Shown here piece by piece: positions 45,889-54,652 of a stretch of DNA of 64,000 bases. Each line of letters begins with the position of its first letter. The first letter of the stretch is position 1. This stretch comes from Peptoniphilus gorbachii. Lineage in GTDB: Bacteria; Bacillota; Clostridia; Tissierellales; Peptoniphilaceae. The DNA lies in NCBI RefSeq assembly GCF_016908115.1, contig NZ_JAFBDH010000001.1:186001-250000 (forward strand), written 5' to 3'. The notes under the pieces are model-generated. The model ran no database searches, was not told the origin of the DNA, and saw nothing but the letters and a program-made list of their open reading frames with translations. The position numbers and the translations under genes were made by a program.

Positions 45889-46602
45889 TTAAAATCCATA
45901 AATTTTTAATTTTTCTTGAATTTTTCTTGTCTTGTCCCTGCCAGTAAATTTTATCTCGTCGATTGCTTTGACATTTCTCACGCCCATTAATGAATTTGAA
46001 ATAAAACATTCATCAAAACTAGCTAAATCTTTGGCATTAATTATTTCTTCAACAATTTCAAAATTTTTAAGGAGAAAATCTCTCATAGTTCCCCTTAAAA
46101 GTCCTGAAGAAATTTCTGGAGTATAGATTTTATCCTCTCTTACGAAGAAAATATTTGCAAAGGAAGTTTCACAGACTTCATTTCTTTCATTTAAAAAAAG
46201 AGCAGAATCAAAACCATTTTCCACAGCCCACCTGTGTTCCAAAATATTTTCATAATAGCAAAGGCTCTTATGATAGATGATTTTTGAAGAGCTATTTCTT
46301 CTTACAGGTGAAATTTTTAAGCTGAAGCCTTTATTTTCATCTCTATAACTATCTTTTCTACCTGTCAAAATAAAATTTTCATCAGAAACTATTAGTTTTA
46401 AGGCAAAATCTTTTTCTTCAGAATTTTTTATATAGTCATAAATTTTTTCTTCCTTTATTTCTTTTTCAATGCCAAAAAATTTTAAAGATTTTTTTAATCT
46501 ATCTAAATGTTCTCTTAAAAAGAGAGGGTCACCCTTTACTACTTTTATAGTTTCAAAGGCGCCCTTTCCAAAAGAAAATCCATCATCAAATTCTATTTCC
46601 AT
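45889..46602 (-). CDS. pabC: Aminodeoxychorismate lyase (class IV aminotransferase)
   Basis: Releases pyruvate from aminodeoxychorismate to give p-aminobenzoate. 237 residues, shorter than most (about 270). FDDGFSFGKGAFETI opens it, the PLP lysine is in YHKSLCYYENIL (about 131), and NEVCETSFANIFFV carries the conserved Glu. A D-amino acid or branched-chain transaminase is possible by family, but the operon with pabAB decides for PabC. AGGAG precedes the ATG; it overlaps aroF by 17 bases. Confidence 0.85.
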   Translation of the reverse strand: MEIEFDDGFSFGKGAFETIKVVKGDPLFLREHLDRLKKSLKFFGIEKEIKEEKIYDYIKNSEEKDFALKLIVSDENFILTGRKDSYRDENKGFSLKISPVRRNSSSKIIYHKSLCYYENILEHRWAVENGFDSALFLNERNEVCETSFANIFFVREDKIYTPEISSGLLRGTMRDFLLKNFEIVEEIINAKDLASFDECFISNSLMGVRNVKAIDEIKFTGRDKTRKIQEKLKIYGF

Positions 46603-47371
46603 TAAATTCTCCTAGAATTTTTGTAATTTTTTTATAAGCTTCATAATCAATAGTTTGTGGGCCGTCACTTTTTGCCATGTCTGGATTTTCGTGAACTTCT
46701 ATCATCACACCATCAAGTCCAAGAGCAAGAGTGGCTTTAACCATTGGCTCAATTAATTCTCTTTTTCCTGTTCCGTGGCTTGGGTCAATAATAACTGGAT
46801 AGCCTGTTTTTTCTTTTATATAATAAGCTCCAGCAAAGTCAAGGGTGTTTCTAAGTTCTGTTTCAAAAGTCCTTATGCCTCTTTCGCAAAAAATTATATT
46901 ATGATTTCCCTCTACTTCAATATATTTTGCAGCCATTTCCCATTCTCTAAGATTTGCAGAAAAACTTCTCTTTAAAATTATTGGCTTATTAGTTTTACCA
47001 ACTTTTTTTAAAAGAGCATAATTATACATATTTCGTGATCCAATTTGAAAGGCATCTACATAGTCCTTCATGGCGTCAACATGGTCTTCACTTAAAACTT
47101 CTGTAACTATAGGAAGATTTGTCATATCTGATGCTTCCTTTAAATATTTTAATCCTTCAAAGCCAAGTCCTTGAAAGTCAAAGGGACTTGTTCTTGGTTT
47201 AAAGGCTCCACCGCGAAGAATATCTATGCCCATTTCTTTTAAGGCTTTTGCTTCCTCAATAATGTGTTCTCGAGATTCAATGGAGCAGGGTCCAGCAATA
47301 ATAATTGGCTTGCCAGAACCTAGCTTGACATCTCTAATTTTTACAATTTTTCCTTTACTCATTTCATTCAT
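46586..47371 (-). CDS. aroF: DAHP synthase, type I-beta (3-deoxy-7-phosphoheptulonate synthase)
   Basis: Joins phosphoenolpyruvate and erythrose 4-phosphate, the first step of the shikimate pathway. 261 residues, the short type without regulatory domain. Motifs AGPCSIES, KPRTSPFDFQGLG, QIGSRNMYNYALLKKVG, CERGIRTFET and DPSHGTGKR are intact. No chorismate mutase or ferredoxin-like regulatory domain is fused here. A chorismate mutase domain sits instead on the tri-domain protein of the same operon. Starts one base inside the end of pabAB. Confidence 0.95.
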   Translation of the reverse strand: MNEMSKGKIVKIRDVKLGSGKPIIIAGPCSIESREHIIEEAKALKEMGIDILRGGAFKPRTSPFDFQGLGFEGLKYLKEASDMTNLPIVTEVLSEDHVDAMKDYVDAFQIGSRNMYNYALLKKVGKTNKPIILKRSFSANLREWEMAAKYIEVEGNHNIIFCERGIRTFETELRNTLDFAGAYYIKEKTGYPVIIDPSHGTGKRELIEPMVKATLALGLDGVMIEVHENPDMAKSDGPQTIDYEAYKKITKILGEFNGNRI

Positions 47372-49383
47372 TATCCTTTGCTTCCCTCAATATCTATGTC
47401 ATTAAAATTATTGTAATAAGCTTGCAGTGCCAGTAGAGATCCCTTTGCCTTTAAGACAATTTCGTCAAATTCTTCTTCTGCATCAGATAAAAGAATTATA
47501 GCTCCTCCTACTCCTATTGTCGCCTTATCTTCTTCTATTAAAGCAGTTCTAATTACAATATTAAAATCAATTGTAGAATTATTTGATATAAATCCAATTG
47601 TTCCTGAATAAACTCCTCGAGGATAATTTTCTAACTGGTCAATGATTTCCAGTGTACGTTTTTTTGGCGCACCTGTCATGGAACCACCTGGAAAAGTTTT
47701 TTTCAAGACATCCATTATATCCACATCATCTTTAATTTTTCCAGAAACTGTAGTTACAAGTTGATGAAGAGTTTTATAAGTCTCTACATCCATTAATTTT
47801 GGCACCTTTACAGTTCCAATTTCACAAAATTTACCCAGGTCATTTCTAAGTAAATCTACAATCATTAAATTTTCAGATTTTGTCTTTTCTTCATTTCTAA
47901 GTTCATCAATAAGTTTTTGATCTTCTTCTAAGCTATCTCCTCTTCTAATAGTACCCTTTATTGGCTTTGTCGTCACAATTTTATTTTTATCCACTTTTAA
48001 AAATCTTTCCATGGAAGATGAGGCAATTTTTATCTCATCTAAGGGCAAGAAGGCAGAATATTGTCCAGGACTTTTTTCTCTTAGCTTCATATAATATTTT
48101 TTAGCATCTAATTTATCAAAAATATCTAGTCTATTTGTTAGACAAACTTCATAAGTTTCTCCCTGGCATATTAAGTCTTTGATCTTTTCTATATCATTTA
48201 TATAAGTTTTTTTGTCCTTCATAAATTTTAATTTTGGAAAATCTTTTTTACTAGCCTCTTCATTATTTTCTTCAAAATTCTTCTCCAAAATGTTTTTTAT
48301 GTCTTTTACCCAATCTTTGTCATCTGCCATAGATAAAATATAGAGTTTTTCTTCTTTGTGGTCGTATACAAGTGCCCTGTCGCAATATTTAAAATAGGCA
48401 TCAGGAAAATCGTAGGAAAATTTATTTGTGACATTTTCTGTATCTTTTTTTAATTCGTAACCCAAATATCCAATATAGCCCAACTGAAAATCAAAGGGAA
48501 GTGCTTCATTATATGTCCATTTTTTTCTATTTTTCTTTAAGAAATCAAAAATATTTTCTTTGTCATTTTCTTTTTTTCTTCCATCAAGAAAATATTTTTC
48601 TACAAGATTTTTGTCTACATCATACTTTATTGTGTGAGCCTTTGTACTTTGCAAGCCAAAAATTGAAAATCTTGAAAGGCCTTCTTCCACCTTGCTGGAG
48701 TCAAGCCAAAGAGCTTTATGGTCATACTTATAAAGTTTTTCATAAATATTTTTTGTATCAAAACTTTTCTCAATTATTTCATAATAAAGTTGGTATTCCT
48801 TATAAAATTCTCTGCAAATATTTATAAAATTTTCAATTAGTTTTTCTCCACATTCACTTGCAATAGATTCTGGATGAAATTGCAGACCATAAATTGGCTT
48901 AGTCTTGTGAGAAATTGCCATTACAACTCCATCTTCCGTTCTTGCATCAATATTTATATTTTGAAGTTCCTTGTCTTCGCAAGTTAGTGAGTGATATCTT
49001 GTGACTTTAAAATTATTTTTTATTCCCTTAAATAAATTTTTACCATTATGAATAATTTCGCTTTGCCTTCCGTGCATGGGTTCACTTGCCCTTAAAATTT
49101 TGCCACCATTATAATAATAAATTCCCTGATGACCTAGGCAAATCCCTAAAATTGGCTTATTTAATTTTTCTATTATGTCTTTACAAACACCAAAATCCTT
49201 CTCTTTTTCTGGGCTACCAGGACCTGGAGATAAAATTACATTGTCAAAGTCTAAATCTAAAATTTCTTGGTAAGTCAATTCATCATTTTTAATTACAAGA
49301 GGTTCAATACCACTGACTTTTCCAATTAATTGAAAAAGGTTATAAGTATAGGAATCGTAGTTGTCAATTATAAGTGATTTCAT
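47371..49383 (-). CDS. pabAB: Aminodeoxychorismate synthase, PabA-PabB fusion
   Basis: Makes 4-amino-4-deoxychorismate from chorismate and glutamine. 670 residues. The glutaminase (1-195) has SPGPGSPE, the nucleophile in GICLGHQG and FHPESIAS. The chorismate-binding part (about 205-665) has PIKGTIRRG at 474-482. The Lys in PIKGT is typical of PabB, where anthranilate synthase has PIAGT, so pABA rather than tryptophan is the product. FPGGSMTGAPKKR (564-576) is intact. Overlaps aroQ by 4 bases. Confidence 0.93.
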   Translation of the reverse strand: MKSLIIDNYDSYTYNLFQLIGKVSGIEPLVIKNDELTYQEILDLDFDNVILSPGPGSPEKEKDFGVCKDIIEKLNKPILGICLGHQGIYYYNGGKILRASEPMHGRQSEIIHNGKNLFKGIKNNFKVTRYHSLTCEDKELQNINIDARTEDGVVMAISHKTKPIYGLQFHPESIASECGEKLIENFINICREFYKEYQLYYEIIEKSFDTKNIYEKLYKYDHKALWLDSSKVEEGLSRFSIFGLQSTKAHTIKYDVDKNLVEKYFLDGRKKENDKENIFDFLKKNRKKWTYNEALPFDFQLGYIGYLGYELKKDTENVTNKFSYDFPDAYFKYCDRALVYDHKEEKLYILSMADDKDWVKDIKNILEKNFEENNEEASKKDFPKLKFMKDKKTYINDIEKIKDLICQGETYEVCLTNRLDIFDKLDAKKYYMKLREKSPGQYSAFLPLDEIKIASSSMERFLKVDKNKIVTTKPIKGTIRRGDSLEEDQKLIDELRNEEKTKSENLMIVDLLRNDLGKFCEIGTVKVPKLMDVETYKTLHQLVTTVSGKIKDDVDIMDVLKKTFPGGSMTGAPKKRTLEIIDQLENYPRGVYSGTIGFISNNSTIDFNIVIRTALIEEDKATIGVGGAIILLSDAEEEFDEIVLKAKGSLLALQAYYNNFNDIDIEGSKG

Positions 49384-49820
49384 TTTTGCTCCTTTAAATA
49401 GTTTTTTAGATATATTATTGCCTTTGTGTAGCCTTCAATTCCATAGCCTTCAAAAAACTTTAAGGAATAATTTCTAATAAAATTTACTTGTCTAAAATCT
49501 TCACGCTCTGAAACTTTCGAAATGTGAACTTCAACTGTGGGGATATTCACCGCCTTTAGGGAATCTAAAATTGCCACGCTAGTGTGAGTGTAGGCAGCTG
49601 GGTTGATAACAATGCCGTCTACTTTTTTGTAGACACTTTGAATTTTATCCACGATGTCACCTTCGTGATTTGATTGAAATTCTTCTATTTCAATATTTTC
49701 CTCAGCTGCTACTTTATCTATTAAGTTTAACAAATTTTCGTAAGTATCCCTGCCATAGATATTTACTTCGCGAATGCCCAGCATATTTATATTTGGACCA
49801 TTAATTACTAGAATTTTCAT
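49380..49820 (-). CDS. aroQ: 3-Dehydroquinate dehydratase, type II
   Basis: Removes water from 3-dehydroquinate to give 3-dehydroshikimate. 146 residues, the usual length for the dodecameric type. INGPNINMLGIREVNIYG carries the catalytic Tyr loop, QSNHEGDIVDKI and NPAAYTHTSVAILDSL the catalytic and substrate residues, VEVHISKVSERE the closing block. Overlaps the upstream fusion gene by 20 bases. Confidence 0.96.
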   Translation of the reverse strand: MKILVINGPNINMLGIREVNIYGRDTYENLLNLIDKVAAEENIEIEEFQSNHEGDIVDKIQSVYKKVDGIVINPAAYTHTSVAILDSLKAVNIPTVEVHISKVSEREDFRQVNFIRNYSLKFFEGYGIEGYTKAIIYLKNYLKEQK

Positions 49821-51309
49821 AGTTCTTTATTTCCTCCAGAATTTTTTCCAAAGTCTTTTCCTCATCTTCAATAACTTTTATTTTTATGTGAGAAATTTCT
49901 TGGTAAATTTTATTTCTCTCTCCATACATTTTTTCTAGGGTCTCTAAATCTTTTGAGAGAGGTCTTCCCTCAGTTTCAAGATGTTTTATATCTCTATCTA
50001 AATAAATTACAAGTGAATTTTGTAAAATTAAATCTCTATTTATTTCTTTTAGTGGAGTGCCGCCACCAGTGGCAATTATTACTCCAGTTTTTTTGGAAAC
50101 ATCTTCTAGCACCCTTGTCTCAAGGTCCCTAAAATATTTTTCGCCCTTCTTATCAAAAATTTCTGGAATATTTCCTTCCCTTTCCTCGATTAATTTATCT
50201 GTGTCAAAGTATTCTCTCTTTAATTTTTCTGACAAGAGTCTTGCCATTGTAGTCTTGCCACAGGAAGGCATGCCCACAAAAGCAATATTATCCATGTCAA
50301 TTTTTATTTTAAAATAGATTTTTTCAATTAAAGACTCATCTAATTTTTCATCTAAAAAAAGTTCTGCCGCAAAAAAAGCTTGCGCAACTAGCATTAAAAG
50401 TCCATTCATGGTTTTTATGCCAAGCTTCTCCCCGTCTAAAATTAATTTTGTCTTTAGGGGATTATAAATTAAATCTATTGCACTTTCTAAATTTTTAAAG
50501 ATTTTTATATCCACCTTGCAGTCCATATTATTTGGAAACATGCCCACTGGACTCGCGTTAATTATAATATCAAAATCTTTAAATTTATCTAAATTGTCGT
50601 AATTATTTTCGCCACTTCTACTGATGACAACAACACTTTTTGCTCCCTTATCAGCTGCAAGTTTTTGGACCATTTTGCTTGCTCCGCCAGAACCAAGAAT
50701 TAAAATCTTTTTGTCTTTTAGGTCAATATCAAAATATTTTAAAGAGTAATCAAAGCCAAGATAGTCTGTGTTGTAGCCCTTTAAAATTCCATTTCTATTT
50801 ATAATTGTATTTACTGCTCCAATTTCTTTAGCAGCAAGATCAACTTGGTCTAAATATTTTATAGAAAGTTCCTTATAGGGAATTGTCACATTTATTCCCC
50901 TAAAATTTTTCTTTTTAAAAAAATCTTCAACTTCACTTTCTTTTAAATTTTTTAGATTATAAGCATATTTTCCAAATAATTCATGTATTTCTTTTGATTT
51001 GCTGTGGGACAAACTTTGACCTATAAGTCCATACTTAAAATTTTCATCCTTAACTTTTGAAATTATTTTTTTGCTCTCCCTAAAAATTTCACCATAAATT
51101 GGCTTTATGGCATCTTTAAATTCTGGGGCAATTTTATTTTCTAAGTTTTTTATAATTTCCCCTTCACGACTAGAATCTTCAGTGTTTAAATTGCTATTTG
51201 CCTTAATAATTCCAACTTCCTTGGAGATTTTCATTCGCCTTTCTAAAAGATGGACAATTTTTGAATCTATTTCATCTAAAATTTTTCTTGATTCATCTAA
51301 ATTTTTCAT
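49801..51309 (-). CDS. Chorismate mutase - shikimate dehydrogenase - shikimate kinase fusion
   Basis: 502 residues with three domains. Chorismate mutase of AroQ type (1-88): R8, R25, K36, D45, R48, E49 and S79 line up with the E. coli active site, but the Gln88 position is Ile83. Shikimate dehydrogenase (about 91-335): SHSKS (101-105), catalytic K146 in VTIPYKE, NTD (180-182), NADP loop GSGGAS (207-212). Shikimate kinase (about 339-495): P-loop GMPSCGKTT (346-354), DTD (369-371), R394, GGG (415-417), R449. The last two are consecutive pathway steps; the mutase may divert chorismate to prephenate or sense pathway products. Overlaps aroC by 4 bases (ATGA). Confidence 0.93.
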   Translation of the reverse strand: MKNLDESRKILDEIDSKIVHLLERRMKISKEVGIIKANSNLNTEDSSREGEIIKNLENKIAPEFKDAIKPIYGEIFRESKKIISKVKDENFKYGLIGQSLSHSKSKEIHELFGKYAYNLKNLKESEVEDFFKKKNFRGINVTIPYKELSIKYLDQVDLAAKEIGAVNTIINRNGILKGYNTDYLGFDYSLKYFDIDLKDKKILILGSGGASKMVQKLAADKGAKSVVVISRSGENNYDNLDKFKDFDIIINASPVGMFPNNMDCKVDIKIFKNLESAIDLIYNPLKTKLILDGEKLGIKTMNGLLMLVAQAFFAAELFLDEKLDESLIEKIYFKIKIDMDNIAFVGMPSCGKTTMARLLSEKLKREYFDTDKLIEEREGNIPEIFDKKGEKYFRDLETRVLEDVSKKTGVIIATGGGTPLKEINRDLILQNSLVIYLDRDIKHLETEGRPLSKDLETLEKMYGERNKIYQEISHIKIKVIEDEEKTLEKILEEIKNYENSSN

Positions 51310-52391
51310 CCTTCACCTTCCATAACTAAGTCTAAAATTGCAAGTGCAGTAATCATTTCAATGGCAACAAGAGCTCTGGGAACTATTGAAGGATCATGTC
51401 TTCCAATAATTTTAAGCTTAACATTTTTTTTATCTTTTAAAGATATTGTATTTTGCGCCTTTGCAATGGAGCTCGTGGACTTCACTGCAGTCCTAAAAAT
51501 TATTGGCATGCCACTTGAAAGTCCGCCAATAATTCCACCATTATTGTTAGTCCTAGTCTTTACCTCTCCATTTTCGTAATAGTATTCATCGTTGTGGCTG
51601 CTTCCGTGCATTTTTGCTGCTTCAAATCCACTGCCAAATTCAATTCCTCTTATTCCAGGAACGGAAAAAACTGCGTGAGAAATTACTGACTCTAGAGAAT
51701 CAAAAAAAGGCTCGCCAATTCCTTTAGGTATATTTAAAATAAAGGTCTCTACAATTCCACCAATGGAATCTCCAACTTCCTTTGCCCTTAAAATTTCTTC
51801 CTGCATTTTTTCCCTTGCTGAATCTTCAAAAACTGGGAAGTCTTCATTTTTTAAATCGTAAAGTTTTTCTTCGCCAATATCATTTAAATTTAAGTCAATA
51901 TCACTTGCTTGGCCTATTGATTTTATCCTAGAATAAATTTTTATGCCCCTCTTTAAAAGTAAATCTTCAGCAATAGAACCGGCGATTACTATGGGAGCAG
52001 TCATTCTGCCAGAAAATTGTCCGCCACCTCTTATATCGTTAAAGCCCTTGAATTTAACATAGGCTGGATAGTCTGCATGAGATGGACGTGGTCTATCCTT
52101 TAAATTATCGTAGTCCCTACTCTTTTGGTCTTTGTTTTCGATTATTGCACAGATTGGTGCTCCACAAGTAATGCCATCAACTTCTCCACTCACAATTTTA
52201 AAGTCGTCATCTTCCTTTCTTGCAGTGGAAAATTTATTTTTGCCAGGTCTTCTTCTCTCAAGGTTTTTCCTTATTAAATCTTTATTTATTTTATATCCAG
52301 CACTTATGCCCTCAATAACAATTCCAAGATCTTCAGAATGTGATTGACCAAATAAAGTTACTTTAAAATTTTTGCCAAAACTATATGACAT
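51306..52391 (-). CDS. aroC: Chorismate synthase
   Basis: Converts EPSP to chorismate using reduced FMN. 361 residues. Signatures FGQSHSEDLGIVIEG (about 13-27), RPSHADYPAYVKF, GGQFSGRMTAP and the C-terminal GRHDPSIVPRALVAIE are intact. Overlaps aroA by 11 bases. Confidence 0.97.
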   Translation of the reverse strand: MSYSFGKNFKVTLFGQSHSEDLGIVIEGISAGYKINKDLIRKNLERRRPGKNKFSTARKEDDDFKIVSGEVDGITCGAPICAIIENKDQKSRDYDNLKDRPRPSHADYPAYVKFKGFNDIRGGGQFSGRMTAPIVIAGSIAEDLLLKRGIKIYSRIKSIGQASDIDLNLNDIGEEKLYDLKNEDFPVFEDSAREKMQEEILRAKEVGDSIGGIVETFILNIPKGIGEPFFDSLESVISHAVFSVPGIRGIEFGSGFEAAKMHGSSHNDEYYYENGEVKTRTNNNGGIIGGLSSGMPIIFRTAVKSTSSIAKAQNTISLKDKKNVKLKIIGRHDPSIVPRALVAIEMITALAILDLVMEGEG

Positions 52392-53616
52392 TTGTCTTAC
52401 CTCCTAAAGATTTAAAATCACAAAAAAAGTTTTTGTAAGATTTTTCCACGCACTGACTATCATTTATTGTGATTGGACCATCTGCAAAAGTTGCTGCAAT
52501 AGAAGCAGCCATGGCTATTCTGTGGTCATTATAAGTATTAACTTTTGCAGACTTAAAATTTTTTACTCCCCTAAAGTAAAAGGAGTCTTCAAATAATTTT
52601 ACCTGAACTCCCAAATTTTCTAGCATGTCAATAGTGCTTTTTACCCTGTCGCTTTCCTTTAGTCTCAACCTTTCTATATTTATAACTTCTGTCTCTGTAT
52701 TTGAATGTGTTGCAACTATTGATAAAATTGGGACAGCATCAGGCATATTTTTTGCATCTAAAATTACTCTTTTCTTAGCATCATTTATTTTTTTTAGCTG
52801 AAACTCATCTTTAGAAATATTATAATACCCCAGGTCTTTTAAAAATTCTAAGGCTTTTTTATCTCCTTGAACTGAATTTTTATTAAGTCCCAGCACTTTT
52901 ACACCAGCTGCCAAAAAAAATAAAGCATTGCTCCAGTCTTTTTCAACAACATAATTTACCGGAGAAAATTTTCCCTTACAAGTATAAAAATTTTCATTTT
53001 CTATAACCTCTACTCCAAAATTTTTCATGACATCAATAGTCATGTCAATATAGGGTTTTGATTCCGTTTCATTTGTTAGCCTTATATTAAAATCTTCCTG
53101 ACAGTATCCTGATGCAAGCATAAGACCAGAAATAAATTGAGAGCTTATATTTCCTGGAAGAGTAAAACTAAAGTCCTTAAGCTTTCCACTTAAATAAATA
53201 AAGTCTCCGTCTTCTCTTATATCAACCCCATGCTTGGGAAATTCCTCGAAATAAACAGAATTAGTTCTCCCAATAAGACTACCCCTCCTTATAACTTTTG
53301 CATCAAGTCCAAGCGTGGCTATGACTGGTAGTAAAAACCTAAGAGTACTTCCACTTTCATAGACATCAAGAGTTACTGGTCCTTCAAATTTTTCTGCTGG
53401 ATTAATATAAAATTTATTCCCATTTCTTTTTACCTTAGTACCAAGACCTTTTATAACATTAAGAGATGATTCAATGTCTTTTGAGAGGTCATGTAACTCT
53501 ATTACAGACTCTCCCCCTGCTAAGGCTGCACAAAAAATTGCACGATGGGCATAGGATTTTGATGTAATTGCAGAAATTTCTCCAGATAATTTTTTGTTTT
53601 CAATAATTCTATTCAT
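52381..53616 (-). CDS. aroA: EPSP synthase (3-phosphoshikimate 1-carboxyvinyltransferase)
   Basis: 411 residues, two-lobed. KSYAHRAIFCAALA (about 19-32) binds shikimate phosphate. ESGSTLRFLLPVIATLG replaces the more usual NAGTxxRF..., with Glu-Ser in place of Asn-Ala, so this is a class II-like active site that may be less sensitive to glyphosate. RLRLKESDRVKS and NDHRIAMAASIAA are intact. Overlaps aroB by 8 bases. Confidence 0.95.
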   Translation of the reverse strand: MNRIIENKKLSGEISAITSKSYAHRAIFCAALAGGESVIELHDLSKDIESSLNVIKGLGTKVKRNGNKFYINPAEKFEGPVTLDVYESGSTLRFLLPVIATLGLDAKVIRRGSLIGRTNSVYFEEFPKHGVDIREDGDFIYLSGKLKDFSFTLPGNISSQFISGLMLASGYCQEDFNIRLTNETESKPYIDMTIDVMKNFGVEVIENENFYTCKGKFSPVNYVVEKDWSNALFFLAAGVKVLGLNKNSVQGDKKALEFLKDLGYYNISKDEFQLKKINDAKKRVILDAKNMPDAVPILSIVATHSNTETEVINIERLRLKESDRVKSTIDMLENLGVQVKLFEDSFYFRGVKNFKSAKVNTYNDHRIAMAASIAATFADGPITINDSQCVEKSYKNFFCDFKSLGGKTNVI

Positions 53617-54652
53617 TTTCCTTACCTAAATCAATTATTTTTTTTAACTCATCAAAAGTAATTTTTTTACTTATAACCTCGCCTATTTTTACTGGAAGAA
53701 TTACATTTATAAGATTTTTATTTATTTTTTTGTCGTGCTTTAAAATCCCTAAAATTTCTTCTGTCTCAAAGTCATAAGAAGTTGGAAGATTGTGATTTTT
53801 AAAAGCAGAAATTATTTCGCCGGAAAAATCTTCTTCCGCAAGACCCATCTTATAAGCTGCCCTTGCCATATAAATTAGTCCAATTCCAATACTTTCGCCG
53901 TGGTTTAATTTATATTTTGAAAGAGATTCTATGCCGTGACCAATAGTGTGACCAAGATTTAACTTTTGTCTCTTGCCCTTGTCCCTTTCATCATCTCTTA
54001 CAAAGTCCAGCTTAATATTTAAAGATTTGTAAATAATTTTTTCGTAGTCAAGTTTTTTTGCAGACTTTAAATAATCAAAAAATCCCCTATCCCTTAAGAC
54101 GGAATATTTAAAAATTTCTGCAAGTCCATTGTTAATATTTCTATCGTCAAGACTTTCCAAAAAGCTGTAATCAATGTGGACATATTTTGGAAAATAAAAG
54201 GCGCCAATTTGATTTTTTAAGTTCATAAAATTTATGCCATTTTTTCCGCCAACAGAAGAGTCAATCATAGAAAGAAGTGTCGTTGGCACAGAGATAAAAT
54301 CAATTCCCCTAAGATATGTTGCTGCAACAAAACCAGATATATCGCCAACAACACCGCCACCAAAGGCTATGATTATGTCGCCTCTGTTAAAATTTTTTTC
54401 CAATAAAAACTTATTTATATTTATATAATTTTCCATGGACTTGGATTTTTCGCCAGCAGGAAATTTATTAATAAAATAATTTAAGCCATCCATAAGTTTT
54501 TTTAATCTTTCACTGTAAATACCAAAGACATTTTCGTCAGTGATGACTAAAAATTTCCCGTCCTTATTTTGATATAAATAATCCCTTAACTTTTTATCAT
54601 TTTTATAGTCAATATCTATTGTATAATTATTTTCTTTAACTTGAATTTTCAT
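53609..54652 (-). CDS. aroB: 3-Dehydroquinate synthase
   Basis: 347 residues, NAD- and metal-dependent. Glycine-rich GGGVVGDISGFVAATYLRGI (about 98-117), SVGGKNGIN (about 132-140), metal-site Glu in NGLAEIFKYS, and LNLGHTIGHGIE (about 231-242) with metal-binding His are intact. First gene of the eight-gene operon. TAGGAG precedes its ATG. Confidence 0.96.
   Translation of the reverse strand: MKIQVKENNYTIDIDYKNDKKLRDYLYQNKDGKFLVITDENVFGIYSERLKKLMDGLNYFINKFPAGEKSKSMENYININKFLLEKNFNRGDIIIAFGGGVVGDISGFVAATYLRGIDFISVPTTLLSMIDSSVGGKNGINFMNLKNQIGAFYFPKYVHIDYSFLESLDDRNINNGLAEIFKYSVLRDRGFFDYLKSAKKLDYEKIIYKSLNIKLDFVRDDERDKGKRQKLNLGHTIGHGIESLSKYKLNHGESIGIGLIYMARAAYKMGLAEEDFSGEIISAFKNHNLPTSYDFETEEILGILKHDKKINKNLINVILPVKIGEVISKKITFDELKKIIDLGKENE

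Follow-up and report, generated by a model that had tools for sequence, protein, structure and literature searches.

The locus described here raises the question of what a chorismate mutase (CM) domain does at the head of a shikimate dehydrogenase-shikimate kinase protein. The window (the whole stretch of 64,000 nucleotides of Peptoniphilus gorbachii DNA that was analysed) carries the three domains in one open reading frame of 502 residues, each with its own domain match (Table 1), as the initial annotation had described. The ends of the gene overlap its neighbours, the start with the aroC stop and the end with the aroQ start, within the operon-like order aroB-aroA-aroC-fusion-aroQ-pabAB-aroF-pabC. 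No RNA regulator was found in the operon, where the two Rfam matches are at chance level and far under the gathering scores.

Table 1. Positions in the window of the fusion gene, its domains and the surrounding aro and pab genes
Feature	Positions	Strand	Basis
aroB, first gene of the operon	53609..54652	minus	TIGR01357 above cut-off
aroA	52381..53616	minus	283.7 bits, just below TIGR01356 cut-off 287.25
aroC, chorismate synthase	51306..52391	minus	TIGR00033 above cut-off
CM - shikimate dehydrogenase - shikimate kinase fusion gene	49801..51309	minus	502 aa, one ORF
AroQ-type CM domain, residues 2-88	51046..51306	minus	CM_2 55.6 bits, cut-off 27
Ile83 codon (ATT), position of E. coli Gln88	51061..51063	minus	alignment to E. 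coli PheA
Shikimate dehydrogenase domain, residues 92-336	50302..51036	minus	profile and structure-database matches
Shikimate kinase domain, residues 340-494	49828..50292	minus	SKI 131 bits
aroQ, type II dehydroquinase	49380..49820	minus	profile matches
pabA-pabB fusion, aminodeoxychorismate synthase	47371..49383	minus	TIGR00553 above cut-off
aroF, type Ibeta DAHP synthase (261 aa, catalytic core only)	46586..47371	minus	TIGR01361 above cut-off
pabC-like aminodeoxychorismate lyase, class IV aminotransferase	45889..46602	minus	best NCBIfam match pabC, below cut-off

AlphaFold2 models the fusion as a single chain, from an input alignment of 43 sequences, with a mean pLDDT of 94.9 and a pTM of 0.89. 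The CM part of the model consists of three helices (residues 4-39, 46-59 and 62-89; pLDDT 85-97 by 10-residue block), and helix 3, which runs to residue 89, is followed by a link of three residues and by the first dehydrogenase strand from residue 93. The CM_2 domain and the three-helix protomer are those of the AroQ class, which is also marked by Gln or Glu at position 88 (E. coli numbering), with the active M. tuberculosis CM as a known exception; the window protein has Ile83 there. The order of a CM domain amino-terminal to AroE in a single chain is that of the CM-shikimate dehydrogenase class, and the protein is not a bifunctional CM-prephenate dehydratase (PheA), since a Pfam search of it found no prephenate dehydratase (PDT) domain. 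PDB fold searches with the fusion returned shikimate dehydrogenase folds and hardly probed the CM part. Against NCBIfam the CM domain gave 17 matches, all below cut-off, and the same is true of the Gln-keeping L086 domain.

The fusion can be placed among several related architectures in a comparison set of 130 genomes of the family, 14 of which belong to the window's genus. Ten of these 14, the window's included, carry an intact fusion (502-503 residues) in the same gene order, and the nine further orthologues rule out a frameshift or assembly artefact; a frameshift that merged two genes was one of the refuting cases named by the initial annotation. An eleventh genome, G119, has the same order, but here the fusion, aroA and pabAB are all interrupted; at that locus (L050) a ybaK-like gene is likewise broken or short, and the FolP of this genome is in two pieces, so that either the assembly is poor or the folate pathway is decaying. 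In G117 pabAB is two ORFs. Three members of the genus remain: G113 and G116 each have a CM-kinase protein in which Gln88 is retained, as well as dehydrogenase-like matches elsewhere in the genome, and G115 has no CM_2 match. In other genera of the family, triple fusions occur in G012, G022, G025, G036, G037, G043, G044 and G071, and in G038 with a stop inside the matched stretch; G069 and G070 have a CM-kinase protein without the dehydrogenase; in G054 and G055 CM has its own gene, which lies between aroC and aroEK; and G125 (L055:9467-10726) has the same aro-pab order with an AroE-AroK protein of 419 residues and no CM domain. Four-domain chains of chorismate synthase, CM, dehydrogenase and kinase (858 and 852 residues; Pfam on L062 only) were seen in G059 and G068 (L062:6844-9417, L063:6640-9198).

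Other arrangements lie further from the window's. CM-shikimate kinase fusions stand beside aroA in L051:8544-9299, L052:8497-9285, L058:8223-8954 and L059:8433-9146, and in L051 and L052 also beside aroC; aroB, aroE, aroF and aroQ were unmatched within these 18-kb stretches, which may represent half pathways where CM retains Gln88 despite no PDT, PF00425 protein or convincing PDH being found. The dehydrogenase-kinase proteins of G056-G058 (L064, L065, L066), about 500 residues long, begin with a degenerate CM-like stretch unmatched by CM_2. G058 also has a free CM gene, whose neighbours are the gene of a CitMHS-type transporter and two peptidase-U32 genes resembling trhP1/trhP2 (L067:363-4428). 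The other two genomes, G056 and G057, which belong to the same genus, show no CM_2 match and, among the matches listed, no U32; the neighbourhood and these absences suggest a CM that feeds prephenate-dependent tRNA hydroxylation.

On a quick tree of the dehydrogenase-kinase part, which includes 60 of 126 proteins, the fused state changes at least seven times when the frame-broken G010, G011 and G119 are scored as fused (ten times before this relabelling). The window's genus groups with G043 and G044, which are fused and keep the glutamine, and with G125, which has no CM (SH-aLRT 99). Triple fusions were also found in 5 of 80 loci of a scan of named genomes, from which near relatives of the window may be missing, and in at least 10 of 391 class genomes drawn, all 10 outside the family. 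These occurrences rule out a fusion peculiar to one organism: the architecture is not unique, and similar fusions recur across the class. A widespread and already characterised arrangement was the other case that the initial annotation set against itself; the first half holds for the class, but among the open-licence papers listed none dealt with the triple fusion or with such a CM pseudoenzyme.

What sets the window's genus apart is the CM active site. Alignment to E. coli PheA bears out the earlier count of seven of eight E. coli active-site residues, with Ile83 for Gln88. All 11 triple fusions of the genus lack the glutamine (Ile in 6, Thr in 3, Ser in 2, counting the CM piece of G119), and the 147 other CM domains have Gln in 146 and Glu in one. 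These comparators form three sets without shared sequences. The first is the family alignment (a single CM domain per genome, for the 68 of 130 genomes with CM_2), in which all 57 domains other than the genus fusions, those of G113 and G116 among them, have Gln88. The second comes from the named loci, 63 of which held a CM domain for this count, all with Gln88; L088, L100, L101, L119 and L126, which have in-frame stops, are excluded from alignment A2. The third comprises 27 CM-dehydrogenase(-kinase) fusions of the class (the non-family ones among the matches listed, with a match start at or before residue 5), with Gln in 26 and Glu in one (G364); class counts, which come from the draw of 391 genomes, are to be read as 'at least'.

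The other seven residues (R11, R28, K39, D48, R51, E52 and S84) are retained in all 11 genus fusions. Among the 120 family and named-loci comparators, R11, K39, R51, E52 and Q88 are invariant, D48 varies in 26, S84 in two and R28 in one, and the 27 listed class fusions show a few variants at D48, R51 and S84. The E. coli enzyme depends critically on Ser84 and Gln88, and its Gln88Ala variant is 2x10^4-fold less active (excerpt of PMC4281200). On the dehydrogenase-kinase tree Gln88 disappears in a single change, which gives no basis for claiming a recurrent association. The clade-wide loss of this residue in a genome's sole CM is a new observation.

The CM domain is nonetheless under constraint. 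Among the ten intact fusions of the genus (eight pairs, G119 excluded; some dS values large, saturated or undefined), dN/dS ranges over 0.03-0.25 for CM, 0.08-0.18 for the dehydrogenase part and 0.08-0.19 for the kinase part. In four of the eight pairs CM has the highest value of the three domains, and some relaxation is therefore possible. All seven ligand residues are among the 36 invariant sites of the 83 in the domain (hypergeometric P 0.002, burial ignored). The ratio of CM distance to dehydrogenase-kinase distance has a mean of 1.15 in the window's genus (range 0.12-1.60, 45 non-independent pairs) and of 0.98 in fusions that keep the glutamine (range 0.53-1.33, 7 pairs). The low dN/dS and the similar distance ratios indicate purifying selection on CM, with at most mild relaxation. 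Ligand residues and constraint are thus kept where a residue crucial to catalysis is lost, which fits a binding, non-catalytic role. Judged from the sequences, we put at about even the chance that the domain is catalytically disabled yet ligand-binding, most likely as a sensor of chorismate (or prephenate). The earlier alternative of a sensor or a weak mutase named the right pair, but the two are not on a level: a non-catalytic domain is favoured by the loss of Gln88 in 11 of 11 against 0 of 147 (one Glu counted as kept) and by the ligand residues that stay.

The metabolic setting bears on what the domain could sense or make. The window's genome (G000) has a single CM_2 protein; CM_2 and AroH-type searches found no second CM, and a profile search found no PDT there or in any of the 14 genus members. 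Its PDH_N match, in a 336-residue frame, reaches 23 bits, below the cut-off of 26.5, and is probably another dehydrogenase; PDH_N matches at E 0.001 occur in 7 of the 14 genus members, and the one in G113, which covers part of the profile, scores 29.3 bits. The sole PF00425 protein found in G000 is PabAB of the operon; within the genus, PF00425 proteins occur in the 11 fusion-bearing genomes (counting G119 with its broken copy) and in no others. FolP occurs in all 11 fusion genomes, G000 among them, as well as in G115; the search did not find it in G113 or G116. We infer that the shikimate pathway of G000 serves folate only, p-aminobenzoate being the only product found by searches that covered the PF00425, PDT and PDH_N families.

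Missing prephenate dehydratase does not by itself explain the change at position 88. Of the 47 family genomes with a CM and without PDT (among them G055 and G065, where PDT is matched below cut-off), 36 keep Gln88, 8 of these 36 with a PF00425 protein, which rules out PDT loss alone as the cause and counts against the sensor reading, in that lost prephenate use alone does not predict loss of the glutamine. These intact CMs point to another use of prephenate. A general role of CM in U32/TrhP tRNA hydroxylation is unsupported as a rule: peptidase-U32 is found in at least 126 of the 130 family genomes, against 68 for CM_2, and is so nearly universal that its presence decides nothing.

The window's CM could accordingly still be a mutase, slow or partner-activated, supplying a trickle of prephenate, for example for TrhP-type tRNA U34 hydroxylation; we regard this as unlikely. 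In its favour, G000 has three peptidase-U32 matches among those listed, and in E. coli TrhP-dependent ho5U34 requires prephenate (passages of PMC6599085); the 36 PDT-less genomes that keep Gln88 suggest that prephenate is useful without that phenylalanine route; and Ser or Thr, present in 5 of the 11 species, could still give a hydrogen bond. The Ile of the other six cannot donate one, and U32 is no predictor of CM. The M. tuberculosis CM (AroQdelta, Rv0948c), a sequence match to the window's CM at E 0.0022, likewise has no Gln88 equivalent and is efficient when complexed with DAHP synthase (excerpt of PMC7762937), which speaks for the mutase and against the sensor. That enzyme is, however, free-standing and DAHP synthase-activated, and also has no equivalent of Ser84 (excerpt of PMC4281200), which the window protein keeps.

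A CM domain without ligand, an intertwined dimer that does no more than dimerise or stabilise the dehydrogenase-kinase part, is less likely still. Such a scaffold would suit the AroQ prototype, an intertwined dimer (in the part of PMC10520331 drawn on here), and the passage from helix 3 into the dehydrogenase in the single-chain model, but the seven ligand residues, invariant above the background of the domain, would be unneeded unless they stabilise the fold. That the domain is a functionless relic heading for loss is hardly credible: it is missing in G125, Gln88 is gone and its dN/dS is the highest in half the pairs, yet that dN/dS stays low and its distance ratio is near that of the Gln-keeping fusions.

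Several known systems resemble the window protein in part. The Clostridium acetobutylicum CM-shikimate 5-dehydrogenase fusion (PDB 3fbt) has no kinase domain matched, and its CM part is probably outside the structure, since the solved chain has 282 residues and the aligned residues are numbered 96-368. An AroE-AroK fusion is reported by a fusion survey of archaea (excerpt of PMC11237513). The CM-dehydrogenase-kinase fusions of the class (for example L086, L089, L111, L131, L161, G270 and G325) have the same domains in the same order, but class triple fusions keep Gln at position 88 (Glu in G364), unlike the window's genus. PDT is present in two of the five genomes of the named triple-fusion loci and in 23 of the 27 listed class genomes, CM-dehydrogenase fusions included.

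Also comparable are the CM-like domains that regulate DAHP synthase in Listeria and Bacillus (excerpts of PMC5526877 and PMC6362186), whose chains (PDB 3nvt, 5gmu, 5j6f) match the window's CM by sequence. They have the AroQ fold, little or no mutase role and a response to chorismate or prephenate (as described in part of PMC5526877), and the sensor role here is a hypothesis modelled on them. They are fused to the first enzyme of the pathway, whereas the window's CM is fused to AroE-AroK and AroF is separate. They also keep their polar residues, Gln86 in B. subtilis (same excerpt), so sensing does not need loss of the glutamine. The absence of a mutase-like regulatory domain from the operon's DAHP synthase was correctly noted before, AroF being a 261-residue core, and a core-only type Ibeta enzyme has been argued to escape feedback (in a portion of PMC6362186). 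The further suggestion that a sensing role moved from DAHP synthase into the fusion is unsupported: in the family loci read, CM is part of the aroC-aroE-aroK stretch, also where it has a gene of its own (G054 and G055), and no CM-DAHP synthase fusion occurs in them.

For the ligand-binding, non-catalytic CM we infer loss of catalysis, ligand binding and a regulated target, and the following course of events may be envisaged. The amino-terminal domain descends from an active mutase; the common ancestor of the 11 species with the fusion lost the glutamine crucial to catalysis and retained the chorismate-holding residues, and the present domain would most likely bind chorismate or prephenate without efficient turnover. 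Through the three-residue link between helix 3 and the strand it might signal the level of pathway product to the attached dehydrogenase and kinase, or it might act in trans on the core-only AroF. The dehydrogenase and kinase catalyse steps 4 and 5 of the shikimate pathway, the only product of which found here is p-aminobenzoate for folate. G125, with the same operon and the PABA genes, has no CM, so the domain is dispensable for such a pathway.

Shikimate pathway control usually sits at the first step. If the proposal is true, a regulator would act at steps 4-5, and an enzyme domain would have lost catalysis by one residue, with its ligand site kept, in a lineage that no longer has the pathway branch to which the enzyme belonged. 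The window's genus and its relatives provide matched cases in which the glutamine is kept, the glutamine is lost or the domain is lost. In its full form the proposal is tentative: a pseudoenzyme CM would sense chorismate and control either the dehydrogenase/kinase or, in trans, AroF, in bacteria that use the pathway for folate alone. This would amount to feedback at steps 4-5 by the retired enzyme of a lost branch.
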